A DNA stretch of 47,221 bases from Thermoplasmata archaeon (GTDB lineage: Archaea > Thermoplasmatota > Thermoplasmata > Thermoplasmatales > Thermoplasmataceae). The position numbers and the translations under genes were made by a program. The notes below the pieces were generated by a model that worked only from the letters and a program-made list of their open reading frames with translations, did not search any database and had not been told where the DNA came from. The stretch is taken from positions 1 through 47,221 of the forward strand of contig JAKACH010000004.1 of NCBI GenBank assembly GCA_021821635.1, in the 5' to 3' direction. Shown here one piece after another: positions 11,724-19,290 of this stretch (position 1 is the first letter of the stretch; every line of letters begins with the position of its first letter).

Positions 11724-12190
11724 TGCTGTTTCCCGCTTGATGTCATCGCGCCGATTGCAGATAGTATGACACGAATACCTGCACTTAAGTCAGGGTCTTT
11801 GAGCATTGAATTAATCCGCAGGAGCCCGAGTGGTCGGTCCTTTTTAAAAACATCGGCATTCATCATGGCATCTGCCGCTGTTAGCACCATGCGGCTTATT
11901 TTTTCTGGATCCACTCTTGACAGCAGCGTATATATGCTCAATGCATTTTGGATGAACCTGGTATTTTCAGCATTCAGGAGATCTGATGACACTACTTCCA
12001 GCACGTCGTCCTTCTGTGACAGTATTGCATTCATCAGGCTCAGGATTCCTGACTTCTTAAACGCAGAGATGAGATCGAGGAGGGATTGAATCTCATCAAA
12101 ATGCCCCTGAAACACTCCTGCAGCATTAAGTTCCTTTCTCTCATCCTGTTCCTGGACTATTTTATTCGTCATTTTTGCCATATCAATCAA
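11720..12190 (-). CDS. DUF1641 protein associated with formate dehydrogenase
   Basis: A small helical protein of the DUF1641 type often found beside formate dehydrogenase alpha subunits. The C-terminal RPLGLLRINSMLKDPDLSAGIRVIL stretch gives the family pattern of G(L)L..(M/L)(L)KDPD followed by a hydrophobic helix. Its function is unknown; a role in assembly or membrane docking of the enzyme has been assumed only from context. The ORF begins at 12190 and overlaps the fdhA stop (12187). Later Met codons at 12181 and 12172 are also possible starts. The downstream overlap with fdhD shows tight coupling of all three genes. Confidence 0.75.
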   Translation of the reverse strand: MIDMAKMTNKIVQEQDERKELNAAGVFQGHFDEIQSLLDLISAFKKSGILSLMNAILSQKDDVLEVVSSDLLNAENTRFIQNALSIYTLLSRVDPEKISRMVLTAADAMMNADVFKKDRPLGLLRINSMLKDPDLSAGIRVILSAIGAMTSSGKQQ

Positions 12191-15144
12191 TTCTCCGTTG
12201 GATCAGAATAGTCGCCCCTTTTCCATTTTCCACCTATATTGATTCCCTTCTGCGGAACAGGGTTTTTGTATCTATGATTATTGCGGGGCAGAGGATTTCC
12301 TCTTGCTGCGTCTTCGATTTTCTCTATCCTTACGGAAACCTCCTTGTAGGATGGAGTGTGAGTATCTGGATCCATTGATCTGCTTGTGAGCCTGTTTACG
12401 GACTCTTCTCCCGCTCCGTTCATTGGAAGATACAACTCATGCCCTGATACCCTGCCAGTAACAAGAACGCTAGCCTTTGCACTCCCCCATTTCGAGATAA
12501 TCCTGACCATATCACCAGTTACAATGTTCCTTTCATCTGACAGTTCCTGGGAAATCTCGAGGAATGTGCCAGGGACCTGGGCCCTGATCCCAGTGGTCTT
12601 GTAAGTTTCATTCCCTCCATGAAAATGCTCCAGAAGCCTTCCGTTGTTGAGATGCAGATCGTATTTCTTGTCTGTCTTGAGGTTCCGACCCCATTTGACT
12701 GGAAAGAACCTTGCTCTCCCGTCCTCGAAGTTGAACCTATCGCCGTACAGGAAAGGTGAATCCTTTCCATCTTCTGAAACAGGCCATTGCAGGCTACAGT
12801 ATCCCTGCAGGCGATCGTAATTAACGCCGGCAAATATGGGAGCAAGAAGAGCAACCTCATCCATGATTTCCATAGGATGAGAATAGGACCAGCCAGCACC
12901 AAGACGATTTGCGATATCCTGGATTATCTCCCAGTCAGGTCTGGTTCCATCCAGTGGTCTCATTACCTGGTAAATACGCTGTATTCTTCTTTCCGTGTTG
13001 ACAAACGTGCCTTCCTTTTCTATGCTGGCAGATGAAGGAAGCACTACGTCAGCATATTTTGCAGTCTCTGATAGGAACATATCCTGAACAACAAGGAATT
13101 CAAGTTTCTCGAGCTGGTCTCGTATGTAGGCGGAATCGGAACCTGTTTCGGCCAGTTCTTCGCCGATTATGTACATTGCCATGATCTCACCATCCTGAAT
13201 TGCTTCTATGCAGGTGTTATTATCATGCCCGGGAGCATCAGGGATCTTGCAGTTCCAGGCTGCTTCAAATCTCTTCTTTATCTTCTCGTCATCCACGCTC
13301 TGGTAACCCGGCAGGAATCCAGGGAGGGAGCCGAAATCGCTTGCACCCTGCACATTGTTATGGCCTCTGAGGGGATATGCTCCCGTTCCCCTGCGCCCGT
13401 AATTTCCAGTGACGAGCAAAAGATTTGATATTGCTGTAGAAGTATCACTCCCACTCTGCTGCTGGGTGACTCCCATTGCCCACAATGCAACAACATTTTT
13501 TGCATTGTGAATGGATTCTGCAACCCTTATCAACTCATCTCTGCTGATTCCAGTGGTTTTTTCTGCAAATTCCAGCGTAAATGGAGCGAGGCTGCGCCGG
13601 TATTCATCAAACATGTTAGTTCGCGTGGAAATGAATTCTGAGTCCATCCAACCCATGTCTATGATGTATCTGGATATCGCGTTAATCCATACCAGGTCCG
13701 TACCGGGCTTAGGGTGAATGAAAATATCTGCCCTGCGTGCCATCTCATGTTCCCTGAGGTCCGCAACTATCAATTTCTGGCCTCTAAGTTTGTGCGCCCT
13801 CTTCACCCTTGAAGCAATAACAGGATGAGCCTCTGCCGTGTTAGTGCCTATCGCGAGCACCAGATCTGCGATATATATGTCATGAATCGAGCCAGCATCA
13901 CCGCCATAACCCACGGTTCGCAAAAGACCGGAAGTTGCAGGAGCCTGGCAGAAGCGTGAGCTGTTGTCAATATTGTTTGTTCCAAAAACCTGTCTGGCAA
14001 GTTTCTGCATCAGATAGGCTTCCTCGTTTGTTCCCTTCGATGAGGCGATGAATTCTATTGCTTTCCCGCCATAATTTTGACTGATTTCCTTTAGCCTTGA
14101 AGCAGCGTAATCCAGTGCTTCCTCCCAGGAAGCTTTCCTGAATCCCTCTTTTTCTCTAATAAGGGGCGCGGTAAGTCTTTCACTGCTATTGACAAAGTCC
14201 CAGCCAAATTTTCCCTTAATGCAGGTGGATATGCCGTTTGCAGGAGAGATCGTTTGAGGCTGGACCTTGAGTATATCCCTGCCAACGGTCCACATATCAA
14301 AGGAGCATCCAACGCCGCAGTAAGTGCACACCGTCTTTGTTTTCTTTATTCGACTTTTCCTGAGCTTTGCCTCGATATTGCTGATGGCCATTACTGGCTT
14401 CATCCCGATCTCCGGCTCAAGGCCCTTGACAACCTCAATCATTCTGCTCTTGGTCGCCGCAGGAAGCCCGGTAAGGTATCCAGCCTTTCCGATCATACCT
14501 TTCTCCATCAGTGCATTTACGGGACATACTGTTACACAATGCCCACATGATACACAGGAAGAGTCGTTGATGCTTACGCCGTTATCCCAGACAACCCTTG
14601 GGCGATCAAGAGTCCAGTCGATGTGTATGGTCTCGTTAACCTCTATATCCTGACAGGCTTCGACACAGCTTCCACAGAGAATGCACTGATCCGGGTCATA
14701 AATGTAGAAGGGATTAGTGATATCGACATTGTAACCTTTTCTTGAGAACGGGTATTTCTGAAAATCAATTCCAAGATCGTGTACAGTATTGTGTAAGGAG
14801 CAATCACCATTGTTGTTTTCACATACAGTGCAATACATGTCATGGTTGCGAAGTATTTTCTGGGTCGCTTCAAAACGGAGATCATTCAACCTGGTGGAAG
14901 ATGTCTGAATGATTGAACCTTCGGCAGGCTGTGTCGAGCATGCTCGCTTAATTTTGCCATCCACTTCAACGAGACAGGTATCGCAACTCTGAAGCGGACC
15001 TAGAGCCTCGTTATAACATATATGAGGTACCTGTATTCCAGCAGACAGAAGGACCTGCAAGATAGTCTGTCCATTCATAACATCAAGCTCTTTTCCGTCA
15101 ATTTTGGCGGTTACTCTCTTTTCAGACATCCTTACACAAACCAC
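12187..15144 (-). CDS. fdhA: Formate dehydrogenase-type molybdopterin oxidoreductase, alpha subunit with NuoG-like N-terminus
   Basis: A 985-residue cytoplasmic oxidoreductase. In order: a 2Fe-2S domain (Cys43, 54, 57, 69), a NuoG-type His-Cys3 cluster (His101, Cys105, 108, 115), two 4Fe-4S ferredoxin clusters (Cys154/157/160/164 and 197/200/203/207), then the catalytic chain with its own cluster (Cys273, 276, 280, 308) and bis-MGD domains. The metal ligand is Cys399 in SSRFCQAPATSG. It is cysteine, not selenocysteine, and is followed by Gln400 where E. coli FDH-H has the catalytic His. The PLRGHNNVQGASDFG segment keeps the substrate Arg. No NuoF/NuoE-like or FdhB partner lies nearby. No signal peptide is seen. 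Starts: GTG 15144 (fits a TATA-like CTTTATC about 25 nt upstream) or ATG 15129. Residue numbers assume GTG 15144. Confidence 0.92.
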   Translation of the reverse strand: MVCVRMSEKRVTAKIDGKELDVMNGQTILQVLLSAGIQVPHICYNEALGPLQSCDTCLVEVDGKIKRACSTQPAEGSIIQTSSTRLNDLRFEATQKILRNHDMYCTVCENNNGDCSLHNTVHDLGIDFQKYPFSRKGYNVDITNPFYIYDPDQCILCGSCVEACQDIEVNETIHIDWTLDRPRVVWDNGVSINDSSCVSCGHCVTVCPVNALMEKGMIGKAGYLTGLPAATKSRMIEVVKGLEPEIGMKPVMAISNIEAKLRKSRIKKTKTVCTYCGVGCSFDMWTVGRDILKVQPQTISPANGISTCIKGKFGWDFVNSSERLTAPLIREKEGFRKASWEEALDYAASRLKEISQNYGGKAIEFIASSKGTNEEAYLMQKLARQVFGTNNIDNSSRFCQAPATSGLLRTVGYGGDAGSIHDIYIADLVLAIGTNTAEAHPVIASRVKRAHKLRGQKLIVADLREHEMARRADIFIHPKPGTDLVWINAISRYIIDMGWMDSEFISTRTNMFDEYRRSLAPFTLEFAEKTTGISRDELIRVAESIHNAKNVVALWAMGVTQQQSGSDTSTAISNLLLVTGNYGRRGTGAYPLRGHNNVQGASDFGSLPGFLPGYQSVDDEKIKKRFEAAWNCKIPDAPGHDNNTCIEAIQDGEIMAMYIIGEELAETGSDSAYIRDQLEKLEFLVVQDMFLSETAKYADVVLPSSASIEKEGTFVNTERRIQRIYQVMRPLDGTRPDWEIIQDIANRLGAGWSYSHPMEIMDEVALLAPIFAGVNYDRLQGYCSLQWPVSEDGKDSPFLYGDRFNFEDGRARFFPVKWGRNLKTDKKYDLHLNNGRLLEHFHGGNETYKTTGIRAQVPGTFLEISQELSDERNIVTGDMVRIISKWGSAKASVLVTGRVSGHELYLPMNGAGEESVNRLTSRSMDPDTHTPSYKEVSVRIEKIEDAARGNPLPRNNHRYKNPVPQKGINIGGKWKRGDYSDPTEN

Positions 15145-16342: not shown

Positions 16343-18541
16343 TCACGGTTCTCTTGTCAGATCATAGACGACGTATCCCCAGGCGATGAAGTCGTAATCT
16401 GGTGGAATCTGGAAGTCATACATTGTGTAATTTCCATTTGAAAGTGTTATGCTTGTTACCTTTACATATCTGCCAGTAAAGGCATCATATATCCTGTCCT
16501 TGGTTGTGAGGTTCTGTGCCTGCACGTAACCCTGGCTTGTGAGTATTGGTTGGTATGCAGAAGTTTCGAGGATTCCATTTATAGTGTACATTCGGGAATG
16601 ATTGCTTACGTATGTGTCAAGAACCTCTTCCTTCTGGTATGCATGCGTTGTAACATTGTAAGCAAGAACATAGTCTCCTGGCAGTACGTACTGTGCCTGC
16701 ATGTATGTGTAGTTGGCCATGAGTATCTCGGTGGTTGCGTTGACGCAGCCTGATCCGCCACCACCTCCTCCACCCCCCGAGGGCGCACTAAACGATATTC
16801 CTTTAGTAAAAGAGTTACCGCTAACCGTAATGGATCCTGATGATGGGCTAGGATTGTAGCTATTGCTTGCCGAGACAGAGAAACCGAAAACCCCATTAGG
16901 TTCGGTAAAGGAAATAGAGGTTCCAGTAGACGATTTCAATTTGCCGGCCACATCCACCGTCCATTGAGTGTCTGAGGGAAGGCCGGACTCCGAGAAAGTA
17001 ACAGTGTAGCTAGCAGTTGAATAAAAAGAGATAGAAATGGTGGAGATTGAATTGGATGGCTCGAGTTCAACTGATCCTGAACCTGAAGATGAGGAGTACC
17101 CAGTCGACCATGATGAATAGCTGAAGGTAGTTCCGCCGCTGCTGAACTCCTCCTCAAATGATATTAGATCTGCTGACGATGCTTTCATGACGCCATTAAC
17201 GCTAACAGACCATGGATTACCATTTACGGAGCCACCATTGTTGAAGTTAAGTGTACCCACATTGAAGATTATGCAACTGGAGGAACCATGATCATTTGGC
17301 GCAGACGAAAGAAAGCATGTCTCCTGGCTGAAACCCTTCAGAGATACTGCATAAGTATCACCAGGTTGGGCATAGAACTTGAAATCTCCCTTTGAATTTG
17401 TTGGAACGCAGAACGACGAACAGATGTATTCAGGGTAAGGTACACTTGTTCTTTCGCAAGATTGTTCAATGTGGACTCTGGCGTTGCTGTCGGGACAACC
17501 ATCGTTTCTCACCACACCGGAAAGAGTGTAAGCAGGTACAATAGGTATCTTCAAGCTTGCGTTCATAACTGGAATTCCTGATGCCACACATTCCTGTGGA
17601 GAACAGTATGAGGTACCATTAATTGTGATATGCCCAGAATTAGAAAAATCGAAACAAGGAATACAAAGTACAATATCTTCTTGCGAACTATAATAGCTGG
17701 TAAAATTGCAATCAGGTATCTTTTGTCCGTTTATGCAGACCGCCCTTGCTGTCAGGCTTCCGTTATCGACGAAGAAGTTCTGCCATAACGTGGAATTAGA
17801 AGTTGTTGTTCCCAACAGGTCACTGGATGACGAGGCTGTAGTATATTCATAATTCAATATCGAGTCGCCTGTACTCATCATGGCGTATGCCATTCCTATG
17901 TCTGCAATATCTAAACCCGGAACAAAAGCCATGGCTGCCAGTGCGAGTCCCCCGATGCTTATATAGACTGGAATCAGGTTATTAGATTTATCATTAGTTG
18001 TACCACTTGTATTCATTCCCCCGTCTACATTTCTGCATACAGACATCAAATTCTTGACAGTAGGTCCAAGTCCCCAAACTGAAGAGGATATATGATTATA
18101 CCAGATAGAATCAAATCGTTTCTGAATTGCACAGTCTTGAGAAAGGTTCGTTGCCCTCGTGAAGCCAGATACGGCAATTGGTATGGAAACTTGTAATGCT
18201 GCAAAACTACTTCTATATCCTTCACAGAAAGAGCCCACATCACTAGCACTGTTATGTCTGCCTACTGCCATAGCCAACGCACTGTTAACATTACTAGTCT
18301 GAAAATCATTCCTAACACAGGTCTTGTTAAAAGTATCTCCAGAATCCGTCATGTTATTCAGAAACAGTTTACATGCCCCTGTTGTCATATACACTGTGTC
18401 ATTCCCAGAGTATCCCAGCCAGCAATAGGTTGGAGAACTCGCTTCTGCAATGCCACTGCCAGGTCCAAAAATTACATAAAATGTCACAATAACAAGCATT
18501 GCAGCAATGATTGATGACAGATATTTCCTAATCAGTATCAC
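16343..18541 (-). CDS. Large exported Cys-rich protein with a C-terminal Hint (intein/hedgehog-type) domain
   Basis: A 732-residue protein with an N-terminal signal or anchor helix (about residues 10-35) and many Asn-X-Ser/Thr sites, so it is probably on the cell surface. Residues 190-230 form another hydrophobic stretch. Near residue 510 is a YTVTFSESGLPSDTQW module, a repeat common in Thermoplasmata exported proteins, and a similar weaker unit precedes it. A Gly8-Ser-Gly tract then leads to Cys599 and a Hint-like domain: CVNATTEILM (block A), VLPGDYVLAYN, TSAYQPILTSQGYVQAQNL (block B) and a final YDFQIPPDYDFIAWGYVVYD. The block B His is Tyr, and the terminal His-Asn is Tyr-Asp, so splicing is unlikely; cleavage before Cys599 is uncertain. 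GTG 18541 is the start and overlaps the upstream gene by 14 nt. Confidence 0.78.
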   Translation of the reverse strand: MILIRKYLSSIIAAMLVIVTFYVIFGPGSGIAEASSPTYCWLGYSGNDTVYMTTGACKLFLNNMTDSGDTFNKTCVRNDFQTSNVNSALAMAVGRHNSASDVGSFCEGYRSSFAALQVSIPIAVSGFTRATNLSQDCAIQKRFDSIWYNHISSSVWGLGPTVKNLMSVCRNVDGGMNTSGTTNDKSNNLIPVYISIGGLALAAMAFVPGLDIADIGMAYAMMSTGDSILNYEYTTASSSSDLLGTTTSNSTLWQNFFVDNGSLTARAVCINGQKIPDCNFTSYYSSQEDIVLCIPCFDFSNSGHITINGTSYCSPQECVASGIPVMNASLKIPIVPAYTLSGVVRNDGCPDSNARVHIEQSCERTSVPYPEYICSSFCVPTNSKGDFKFYAQPGDTYAVSLKGFSQETCFLSSAPNDHGSSSCIIFNVGTLNFNNGGSVNGNPWSVSVNGVMKASSADLISFEEEFSSGGTTFSYSSWSTGYSSSSGSGSVELEPSNSISTISISFYSTASYTVTFSESGLPSDTQWTVDVAGKLKSSTGTSISFTEPNGVFGFSVSASNSYNPSPSSGSITVSGNSFTKGISFSAPSGGGGGGGGSGCVNATTEILMANYTYMQAQYVLPGDYVLAYNVTTHAYQKEEVLDTYVSNHSRMYTINGILETSAYQPILTSQGYVQAQNLTTKDRIYDAFTGRYVKVTSITLSNGNYTMYDFQIPPDYDFIAWGYVVYDLTREP

Positions 18542-19268
18542 CTACCAAATAGAAGCCTGCCACCACAGATATATCCTTTGAAAAGCCGAGAAGCGAGAAT
18601 GCAATCTGCGTGTATATCCACTTTCCTTTTGTAAGGTTCCAGATGTTCTCCTCATATCCAACCTTGAGTGAGAAGTGGAAAGTTCCTTTGCTGAATGATG
18701 GTACATTGACGAAGCCCATTTTACAGGAAGACGTGTAGTTTGCTTTGTAATAACTGTATGTGAACGGGTTGAGATTCGAATTTGTTTGGGAGCAGTAATT
18801 ATGATCTGATACACTCACGTTGACAGGATTGGGAGGACATCCCATTGCAACTTTTAGTGGTTCCTGGATACATATGTACGGTGCGTGGAGCAGGGAGTAG
18901 TTTACTGTCAGAATAGAAGCCAAAGGATGAAGGCCCGGTTGAAGAGTCCCGTTGATTATTAAAAGGGTCAAAATGTTGAAATCCTTTTTTCCATCCACAA
19001 CGCAGTTGATGAGTGACATATTGAGAATGGAATTTACCGTATGACTCTGATGAAATAGAGTTGAAACTGTAATATTGTTCCAATTTCTACCAGGGTTACT
19101 GCAACAAGTTCCGTTAAGATAGATAGAGTTGCTATACTCATACCCGTTCTGAACAACTGACACAGGAGGGTTGGAGTAACCTATAACTAACTCGTAGAAT
19201 GATACAGGAGCAGCAATCAGGATCACTACAACGATTGCGAACATGATTGTCTTGTTATTCTTCTGCAT
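18528..19268 (-). CDS. Exported Cys-rich membrane-anchored protein of unknown function
   Basis: A protein of about 246 residues with one N-terminal hydrophobic helix (IMFAIVVVILIAAPVSFYEL) and an outside domain holding many Cys residues, including a CC pair in LNGTCCSNPG, and numerous Asn-X-Ser/Thr sites. It has no recognised fold. It ends in GFYLVGDTD, and its last 14 nt overlap the start of the Hint-domain protein, so the two are co-expressed and may form one surface structure. ATG 19268 is preferred over TTG 19271 because a TATA box lies about 28 nt upstream. Confidence 0.72.
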   Translation of the reverse strand: MQKNNKTIMFAIVVVILIAAPVSFYELVIGYSNPPVSVVQNGYEYSNSIYLNGTCCSNPGRNWNNITVSTLFHQSHTVNSILNMSLINCVVDGKKDFNILTLLIINGTLQPGLHPLASILTVNYSLLHAPYICIQEPLKVAMGCPPNPVNVSVSDHNYCSQTNSNLNPFTYSYYKANYTSSCKMGFVNVPSFSKGTFHFSLKVGYEENIWNLTKGKWIYTQIAFSLLGFSKDISVVAGFYLVGDTD

Positions 19269-19290
19269 CAATTATCAAATCATAATCCAC

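Follow-up and report, generated by a model that had tools for sequence, protein, structure and literature searches.

A C-terminal Hint domain with glutamine at the block B histidine position in exported proteins of Thermoplasmata

Genes at the locus and fold of the C-terminal domain

The window, meaning the whole stretch of 47,221 nucleotides that was analysed, carries a gene at 16343-18541 on the minus strand that starts with GTG and encodes a protein of 732 aa ending in a Hint domain. The features of this gene and of its upstream neighbour are as follows.

16343..18541, minus strand: whole gene including the stop, for the exported 732-aa protein that ends in the Hint domain
18440..18541, minus strand: N-terminal hydrophobic segment, aa 1-34, a putative signal peptide or membrane anchor judged from sequence
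16781..17014, minus strand: region of beta-type repeats, aa ~510-587 (GLPSDTQWTV...)
16748..16777, minus strand: Gly tract, aa 589-598 (GGGGGGGGSG), directly before Cys1
16745..16747, minus strand: Cys599, Hint position 1 (the nucleophile position)
16355..16747, minus strand: Hint domain, aa 599-729
16550..16552, minus strand: Gln664, at the block B His position
16361..16366, minus strand: Tyr726-Asp727, where block G would have His-Asn; five residues and the stop follow
18528..19271, minus strand: 247-aa partner with an N-terminal TM helix and a beta-sandwich (predicted), just upstream, overlapping the Hint gene by 14 bases

From its N-terminus, the protein presents the hydrophobic segment, a Cys-bearing region, the beta-type repeats, Gly8-Ser-Gly, Cys599 and the Hint domain, with 18 cysteines besides Cys599. 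The repeats recur in further open frames elsewhere in the genome. The motifs quoted in a preliminary description of this DNA (Gly8-Ser-Gly, Cys599, CVNATTEILM, GDYVLAYN, TSAYQPILTSQGYV and WGYVVYDL) were all found as written in the minus-strand open reading frame, including the intact Cys1 that it had placed behind the Gly tract.

We observed homologues of the 247-aa partner, window included, in 15 of 41 loci scanned (18 proteins). All except one lie upstream of a Hint gene on the same strand (17/18), nine of them within 110 bases of its called start. The genome holds three further places homologous to the partner gene, and two paralogues at L137 (7049-7855 and 8064-8834) lie near a contig end without a Hint gene. 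The structural model of the partner is weak (pLDDT 72.8) and contains one TM helix and a beta-sandwich. VIA-align placed beta sandwiches of the leukocidin/alpha-hemolysin type first (Z 11.0, 3.6 Å, 163 aligned residues), Foldseek TM-scores were at most 0.35 among the matches listed, and the search with the partner sequence found no link, its single match being a chance-level one to a pilin (E 0.57). Given the weak model, the low Foldseek scores and the missing sequence link, we do not claim kinship with these toxins. Elsewhere in the window, positions 12187-15144 encode a formate-dehydrogenase-like molybdopterin oxidoreductase with Fe-S domains, beside a DUF1641 protein.

The C-terminal domain matched the Pfam family PT-HINT at E 5.8e-5 with 23.8 bits, under Pfam's curated cut-off of 27.7 bits. 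Its best PDB sequence match was the bacterial intein-like (BIL) domain of C. thermocellum, at E 1e-3 for the single sequence and E 3.7e-11 with a 22-row family profile; the Spl DnaX mini-intein was also matched. An AF2 model of aa 595-732, built from the alignment of the same profile, reached a mean pLDDT of 92.3 and a pTM of 0.85. VIA-align superposed this model on BIL2 (6y75; Z 20.7, 1.7 Å over 137 aa), the Ssp DnaB intein (1mi8; Z 20.2), the C. thermocellum BIL domain (2lwy; Z 19.9) and Hedgehog (1at0; Z 17.5), and Foldseek concurred, with query TM-scores of 0.81-0.86 in its top three rows. Structure prediction agrees with the Hint-like fold announced in the preliminary description, and the likeness is not due to chance: the C-terminus has the fold of the self-cutting domains found in inteins and Hedgehog proteins. 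By its fold and its position-1 nucleophile, the domain is a member of the Hint superfamily.

The active-site residues depart from those of a splicing domain. The block B His had been read as replaced by Tyr; this was wrong by one residue, as Gln664 occupies the His column in three alignments and Tyr663 directly precedes it. The terminal His-Asn had been read as Tyr-Asp, correctly, the penultimate His being replaced by Tyr726 and the terminal Asn by Asp727. The loss of the splicing residues is therefore confirmed at both blocks, and splicing by the window Hint is ruled out by its residues. A class 1 intein is ruled out likewise, the block B His, the C-terminal His-Asn and a C-extein all being absent.

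The Gln-type clade of Thermoplasmata

The window Hint belongs to a distinct clade of exported Thermoplasmata proteins, which we call Gln-type. Our first alignment set 28 Gln-type domains, all complete, against 24 canonical Hints from the phylum; L029 was left out of the counts for its broken N-terminus. Position 1 was Cys in 25, Ser in two and Tyr in one of the Gln-type domains; block B was Gln in 26, Glu in two and His in none, and block G held neither His (0/28) nor Asn (0/28). The canonical Hints had Cys at position 1 in 22/24, the block B His in 24/24, and the block G His and Asn in 18/24 and 20/24. The residue before position 1 was Gly in 20 of the 28 Gln-type domains, the window protein among them, and L, R, S, Y or N in the other eight. 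In the tree of the 28 and the 24, the split between the two groups had a branch support of 0.972.

With L104 and 18 later complete members from a class-wide search, the clade comprises 47 complete members, all from the class Thermoplasmata, and their branch taken alone had a support of 0.657 in a later tree. Position 1 is Cys in 42, Ser in four and Tyr in one (L046), that is, Cys or Ser in 46/47, and block B is Gln in 45, Glu in two (L003 and L022) and His in none; as pairs, these make Cys+Gln 40, Ser+Gln 4, Cys+Glu 2 and Tyr+Gln 1. The 18 later members, none of which was used to build the profile, have Cys (16) or Ser (2) at position 1 and Gln at block B throughout (18/18). Copies that were partial or interrupted, among them L006, L009/L025, L011, L013, L019, L024, L047, L049, L052, L056, L057, L062 and L156-L158, were left uncounted. 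One locus, L161 (genome G530), has a C-terminal Hint, a Gly tract, Ser1, no His-Asn and ...NPHQ... at block B. It joins the Gln clade with a support of 0.968, its block B letter being ambiguous between adjacent His and Gln, and was grouped with the "others", apart from the 47, in the later tree; it is a possible intermediate.

The profile matched 29/117 genomes at order level (E 1e-3), in one of which, G037, the match (L058) is canonical and intein-like. It matched 46/389 sampled genomes at phylum level (E 1e-3) and 59/400 at class level (E 1e-4), canonical Hints and inteins included in both figures. A contig scan gave six loci labelled Thermoplasmata archaeon. Collections of phages, plasmids and viruses held no close relative, their weak phage and plasmid matches covering less than 70% of the query, and searches of open-access papers listed none that deals with Thermoplasmata Hint domains. 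The domain is C-terminal in its proteins with few exceptions: 0-4 residues follow the profile match in 29/29 Gln-type open reading frames of one set, and among the later members 322 residues follow it in L147 and 35 in L154.

The genome holds a second protein with a Gly tract and a Hint domain, on contig C49, its Hint being 94% identical to that of the window. At the DNA level (window 16343-17200 against L079 8570-9430), the two copies share 68.0% identity over the 150 aligned bases that precede the Gly tract, 98.1% over 160 bases starting inside the tract, and 90.6% from there to the end. A recent conversion or exchange with an edge at the Gly tract explains this jump, and the Hint behaves as a cassette. 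The modules upstream of Gln-type Hints vary (CarboxypepD_reg, DUF2341, repeats of the GLPxGTxW type), and in L092 a pro-kumamolisin activation domain and a Peptidase_S8 match precede the Hint. A DUF929 protein adjoins Gln-type Hint genes at L088 (7453-8268), L096 (9249-9665) and L097 (2367-3173), as assigned by Pfam match for L088 and L097 and by BLAST cluster for L096.

The Hint domain is under purifying selection. Its dN/dS (Nei-Gojobori) was 0.11 between the window and C49 copies, 0.026 for the G032 pair and 0.13-0.14 for two other close pairs; in the G032 pair, the N-terminal 523 codons gave 0.35, against 0.026 in the Hint. On the tree of the 47, the slowest four of 136 columns were Val2, Gln, a Gly and Cys1, with 1, 1, 2 and 3 changes, where the median column has 15. 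The four Ser1 members do not form one clade, as the clade of their most recent common ancestor holds 15 of the 47, and the exchange of Cys for Ser at position 1 keeps a nucleophile there. Among 25 called open reading frames of at least 350 aa with Cys1, some with uncertain 5' ends, 11 contain no other cysteine, which excludes an internal disulfide as the role of Cys1 in these; such a role is possible in the window protein, with its 18 other cysteines. In-frame stops occur in the match rows of 8/29 matching genomes (G005:C85, G010:C42, G019:C21, G002:C61, G103:C37, G060:C23, G008:C89 and G109:C74), where assembly error is not excluded. These stops, and the several copies that are fragments, could indicate a decaying relic of a formerly active Hint, a very improbable reading that is contradicted by the low dN/dS in all four close pairs, the long open frames and the conserved active-site columns.

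Proposed chemistry and its alternatives

We propose that the Gln-type Hint probably performs an altered cysteine chemistry, being neither dead nor splicing. The more specific form of this proposal, an acid-adapted Hint without His that performs only the chemistry of the N-terminal junction, has in our judgement about the same chance of being right as of being wrong. Once exported, the chain would fold in the acid of the cell exterior. Cys599, which some relatives replace by Ser, would attack the carbonyl at residue 598, where the Gly tract ends, and form a thioester (or an ester). The environment together with Gln would do the work of a His, which acid would hold in its protonated form throughout, and this protonation would itself be a reason to lose the His. 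Because block G is gone, the reaction would halt at the (thio)ester. Water could then resolve it, and the upstream domains would be released from the Hint cap; alternatively, another nucleophile could do so, and the upstream domains would become attached to that nucleophile.

Acyl shifts to Cys or Ser are favoured by acid and heat, and Gly-Cys is a favourable site. D, E, K and R together average 13.4% in Gln-type Hints versus 22.2% in the canonical Hints of the phylum, and so low a charge fits exported proteins of acidophiles. The assignment to the surface of an acid-loving archaeon in the preliminary description is supported to the extent that the sequence is of the export type and has the low charge of the acid type. 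Inteins that lack the block B His or the penultimate His and still splice are described in a passage of PMC7664689, and the account of Tko CDC21-1 in PMC7765530 presents an intein without the block B His that also still splices.

Other evidence counts against junction chemistry. In the experiments on Ssp DnaB with Gly(-1) that the cited section of Friedel et al. (PMC6333167) reports, the block B His is essential, the form without His is inert and only bulky residues at -1 rescue the His mutant. With Gly at -1 in 20/28 Gln-type domains, this result speaks against the proposal, and the idea that Gly at -1 helps a Hint without His was rejected, since the same section shows the opposite. Tyr at position 1 in L046 and Glu for Gln in L003 and L022 also stand against it. 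The preliminary description had left the choice between a dead scaffold and a cleavage-only domain of altered chemistry; the scaffold is weakened by the purifying selection and by Cys or Ser at position 1 in 46/47, and the cleavage-only alternative fits better, yet the inert Gly(-1) intein of that section argues against it. Attachment of the upstream domains to a lipid or another protein, also raised in that description, is a speculative possibility.

A non-catalytic scaffold is still the strongest competitor, although we consider it rather unlikely. The Hint fold would here have persisted as a compact beta domain at the C-terminus, stable in acid, that binds or anchors the protein, perhaps to the co-encoded membrane-anchored partner, with Cys1 and Gln664 in structural roles. 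The loss of all three splicing His/Asn positions in 28/28 domains, the inertness of Ssp DnaB with Gly at -1 and without His as reported in that section of PMC6333167, the partner gene directly upstream at many loci and the Tyr at position 1 of one member are consistent with it. However, the active-site Cys/Ser and Gln are among the slowest-evolving columns, Cys swaps with Ser and not with Ala or Val, and Cys1 is the sole cysteine in 11/25 open reading frames.

It is less probable again, and in our view doubtful, that Cys1 (or Ser1) is cross-linked to the block B Gln, its neighbour in the Hint active site, with loss of ammonia. The resulting internal (thio)ester would be a reactive surface group through which the protein binds amines or hydroxyls covalently, as Gram-positive thioester domains do, here on a Hint fold. 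The pairs Cys+Gln (40/47) and Ser+Gln (4/47) favour this reading. The block B side chain of inteins is hydrogen-bonded to the scissile amide at Cys1 in the description given by PMC7765530, and the relevant part of PMC4450167 describes surface adhesins that carry Cys-Gln thioesters and whose motifs, C-hydrophobic and Q-x-hydrophobic-hydrophobic, are weak. The CV and QP[IVL][LYF] of the clade resemble these motifs, but the likeness is loose and could be a plain beta-strand pattern. Cys+Glu in two members and Tyr+Gln in one also weigh against the (thio)ester, and the fold of the thioester domain (TED), a beta barrel with a helical subdomain, is unlike that of the AF2 model, which is a Hint; Cys and Gln are both conserved in the clade. 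The picture of a surface "chemical harpoon", in which the intein/Hedgehog fold would sit at the tip of an N-terminally anchored stalk of beta-repeats with a flexible Gly hinge and carry a Cys1/Ser1-Gln (thio)ester that forms in acid and couples the protein covalently to neighbours or surfaces, independently of the TED adhesins of Gram-positive bacteria and of complement, is equally doubtful.

A pre-toxin Hint of a polymorphic toxin, or a selfish intein, is very hard to sustain and was rejected: PT-HINT is the best Pfam name, and Hints in exported proteins are typical of such toxins in the portion of PMC3482391 concerned, but the domain is C-terminal in all 29 Gln-type open reading frames of the set described above, the window gene has no block G, toxin domain, homing endonuclease or C-extein, and PADLOC gave no match among four proteins.

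Well-studied Hints use His, which would be fully protonated in strong acid; this clade lost the catalytic His but not the nucleophile, and acquired a Gln that is nearly invariant. Being probably acid-exposed, it is a natural experiment on what a Hint active site needs, and it would yield either a cleavage or transfer tag that works in acid or a new covalent surface chemistry.

Comparison with known Hint systems

The Gln-type Hint lacks a defining feature of each of the following and so is none of them: class 1 intein, A-type BIL domain, B-type BIL domain, Hog domain and PT-HINT toxin processor. Its activity may still resemble the first step of any of these. With the BIL domains (C. thermocellum 2lwy and T. 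thermophila BIL2 6y75), it shares the fold, a match over its full length, non-conserved host proteins and Cys1; it differs in being archaeal, in having Gln at block B and in having neither a His-Asn end nor anything after the domain. The A-type is excluded by the absence of the conserved C-terminal His-Asn in all 28 aligned domains. B-type BIL domains are defined, in the wording of PMC7765530 that bears on them, by all intein motifs except the C-terminal one, and this type is excluded by the replaced block B His.

The Hog domain of Hedgehog (1at0) is likewise a C-terminal Hint of the same fold behind exported N-terminal domains. The Gln-type differs from it in lacking the block B His and the sterol-recognition extension, only 0-4 residues following the match in the 29 open reading frames, and the missing sterol-recognition region excludes a Hog domain. 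The nearest relatives in sequence are PT-HINT (PF07591) and the canonical Hints of other Thermoplasmatota (L063-L078, L101, L102, L159 and L160); those have the block B His and mostly His-Asn ends, and run on into further domains. The PT-HINT toxin processor is excluded by a score below the Pfam gathering score and by the missing downstream domain.

Tko CDC21-1 is comparable as a Hint without His, in which a compensating residue activates the N-terminal junction, as stated in the pertinent passage of PMC7765530. That intein splices and uses Lys, and its group has, in the section of PMC6333167 that treats it, a bulky Leu at -1, whereas the Gln-type has Gln, mostly Gly at -1 and no block G.

Two loci, L101 and L102 (G400 and G429), carry a canonical Hint with the block B His and a His-Asn end mid-way in long proteins. 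A Gly tract precedes the canonical Hint in L101 and is also reported for L102 and L075, and L102 has a Peptidase_S8 match. L101 and L102 are likely to give a picture of the ancestral arrangement. Tandem canonical Hints were observed in other Thermoplasmatota, at L064 (G207:C62) and L073 (G337:C19) and also on G207:C15 and C122, with up to four matched in one open frame of 2,927 aa and ten matches in one genome. Finally, intein-like inserts at L162-L165 and L167 occupy the same site in five class members, after PGSKIFS[IV]ATTGCNWL, at Cys, in a host protein that we take to be a radical-SAM protein.
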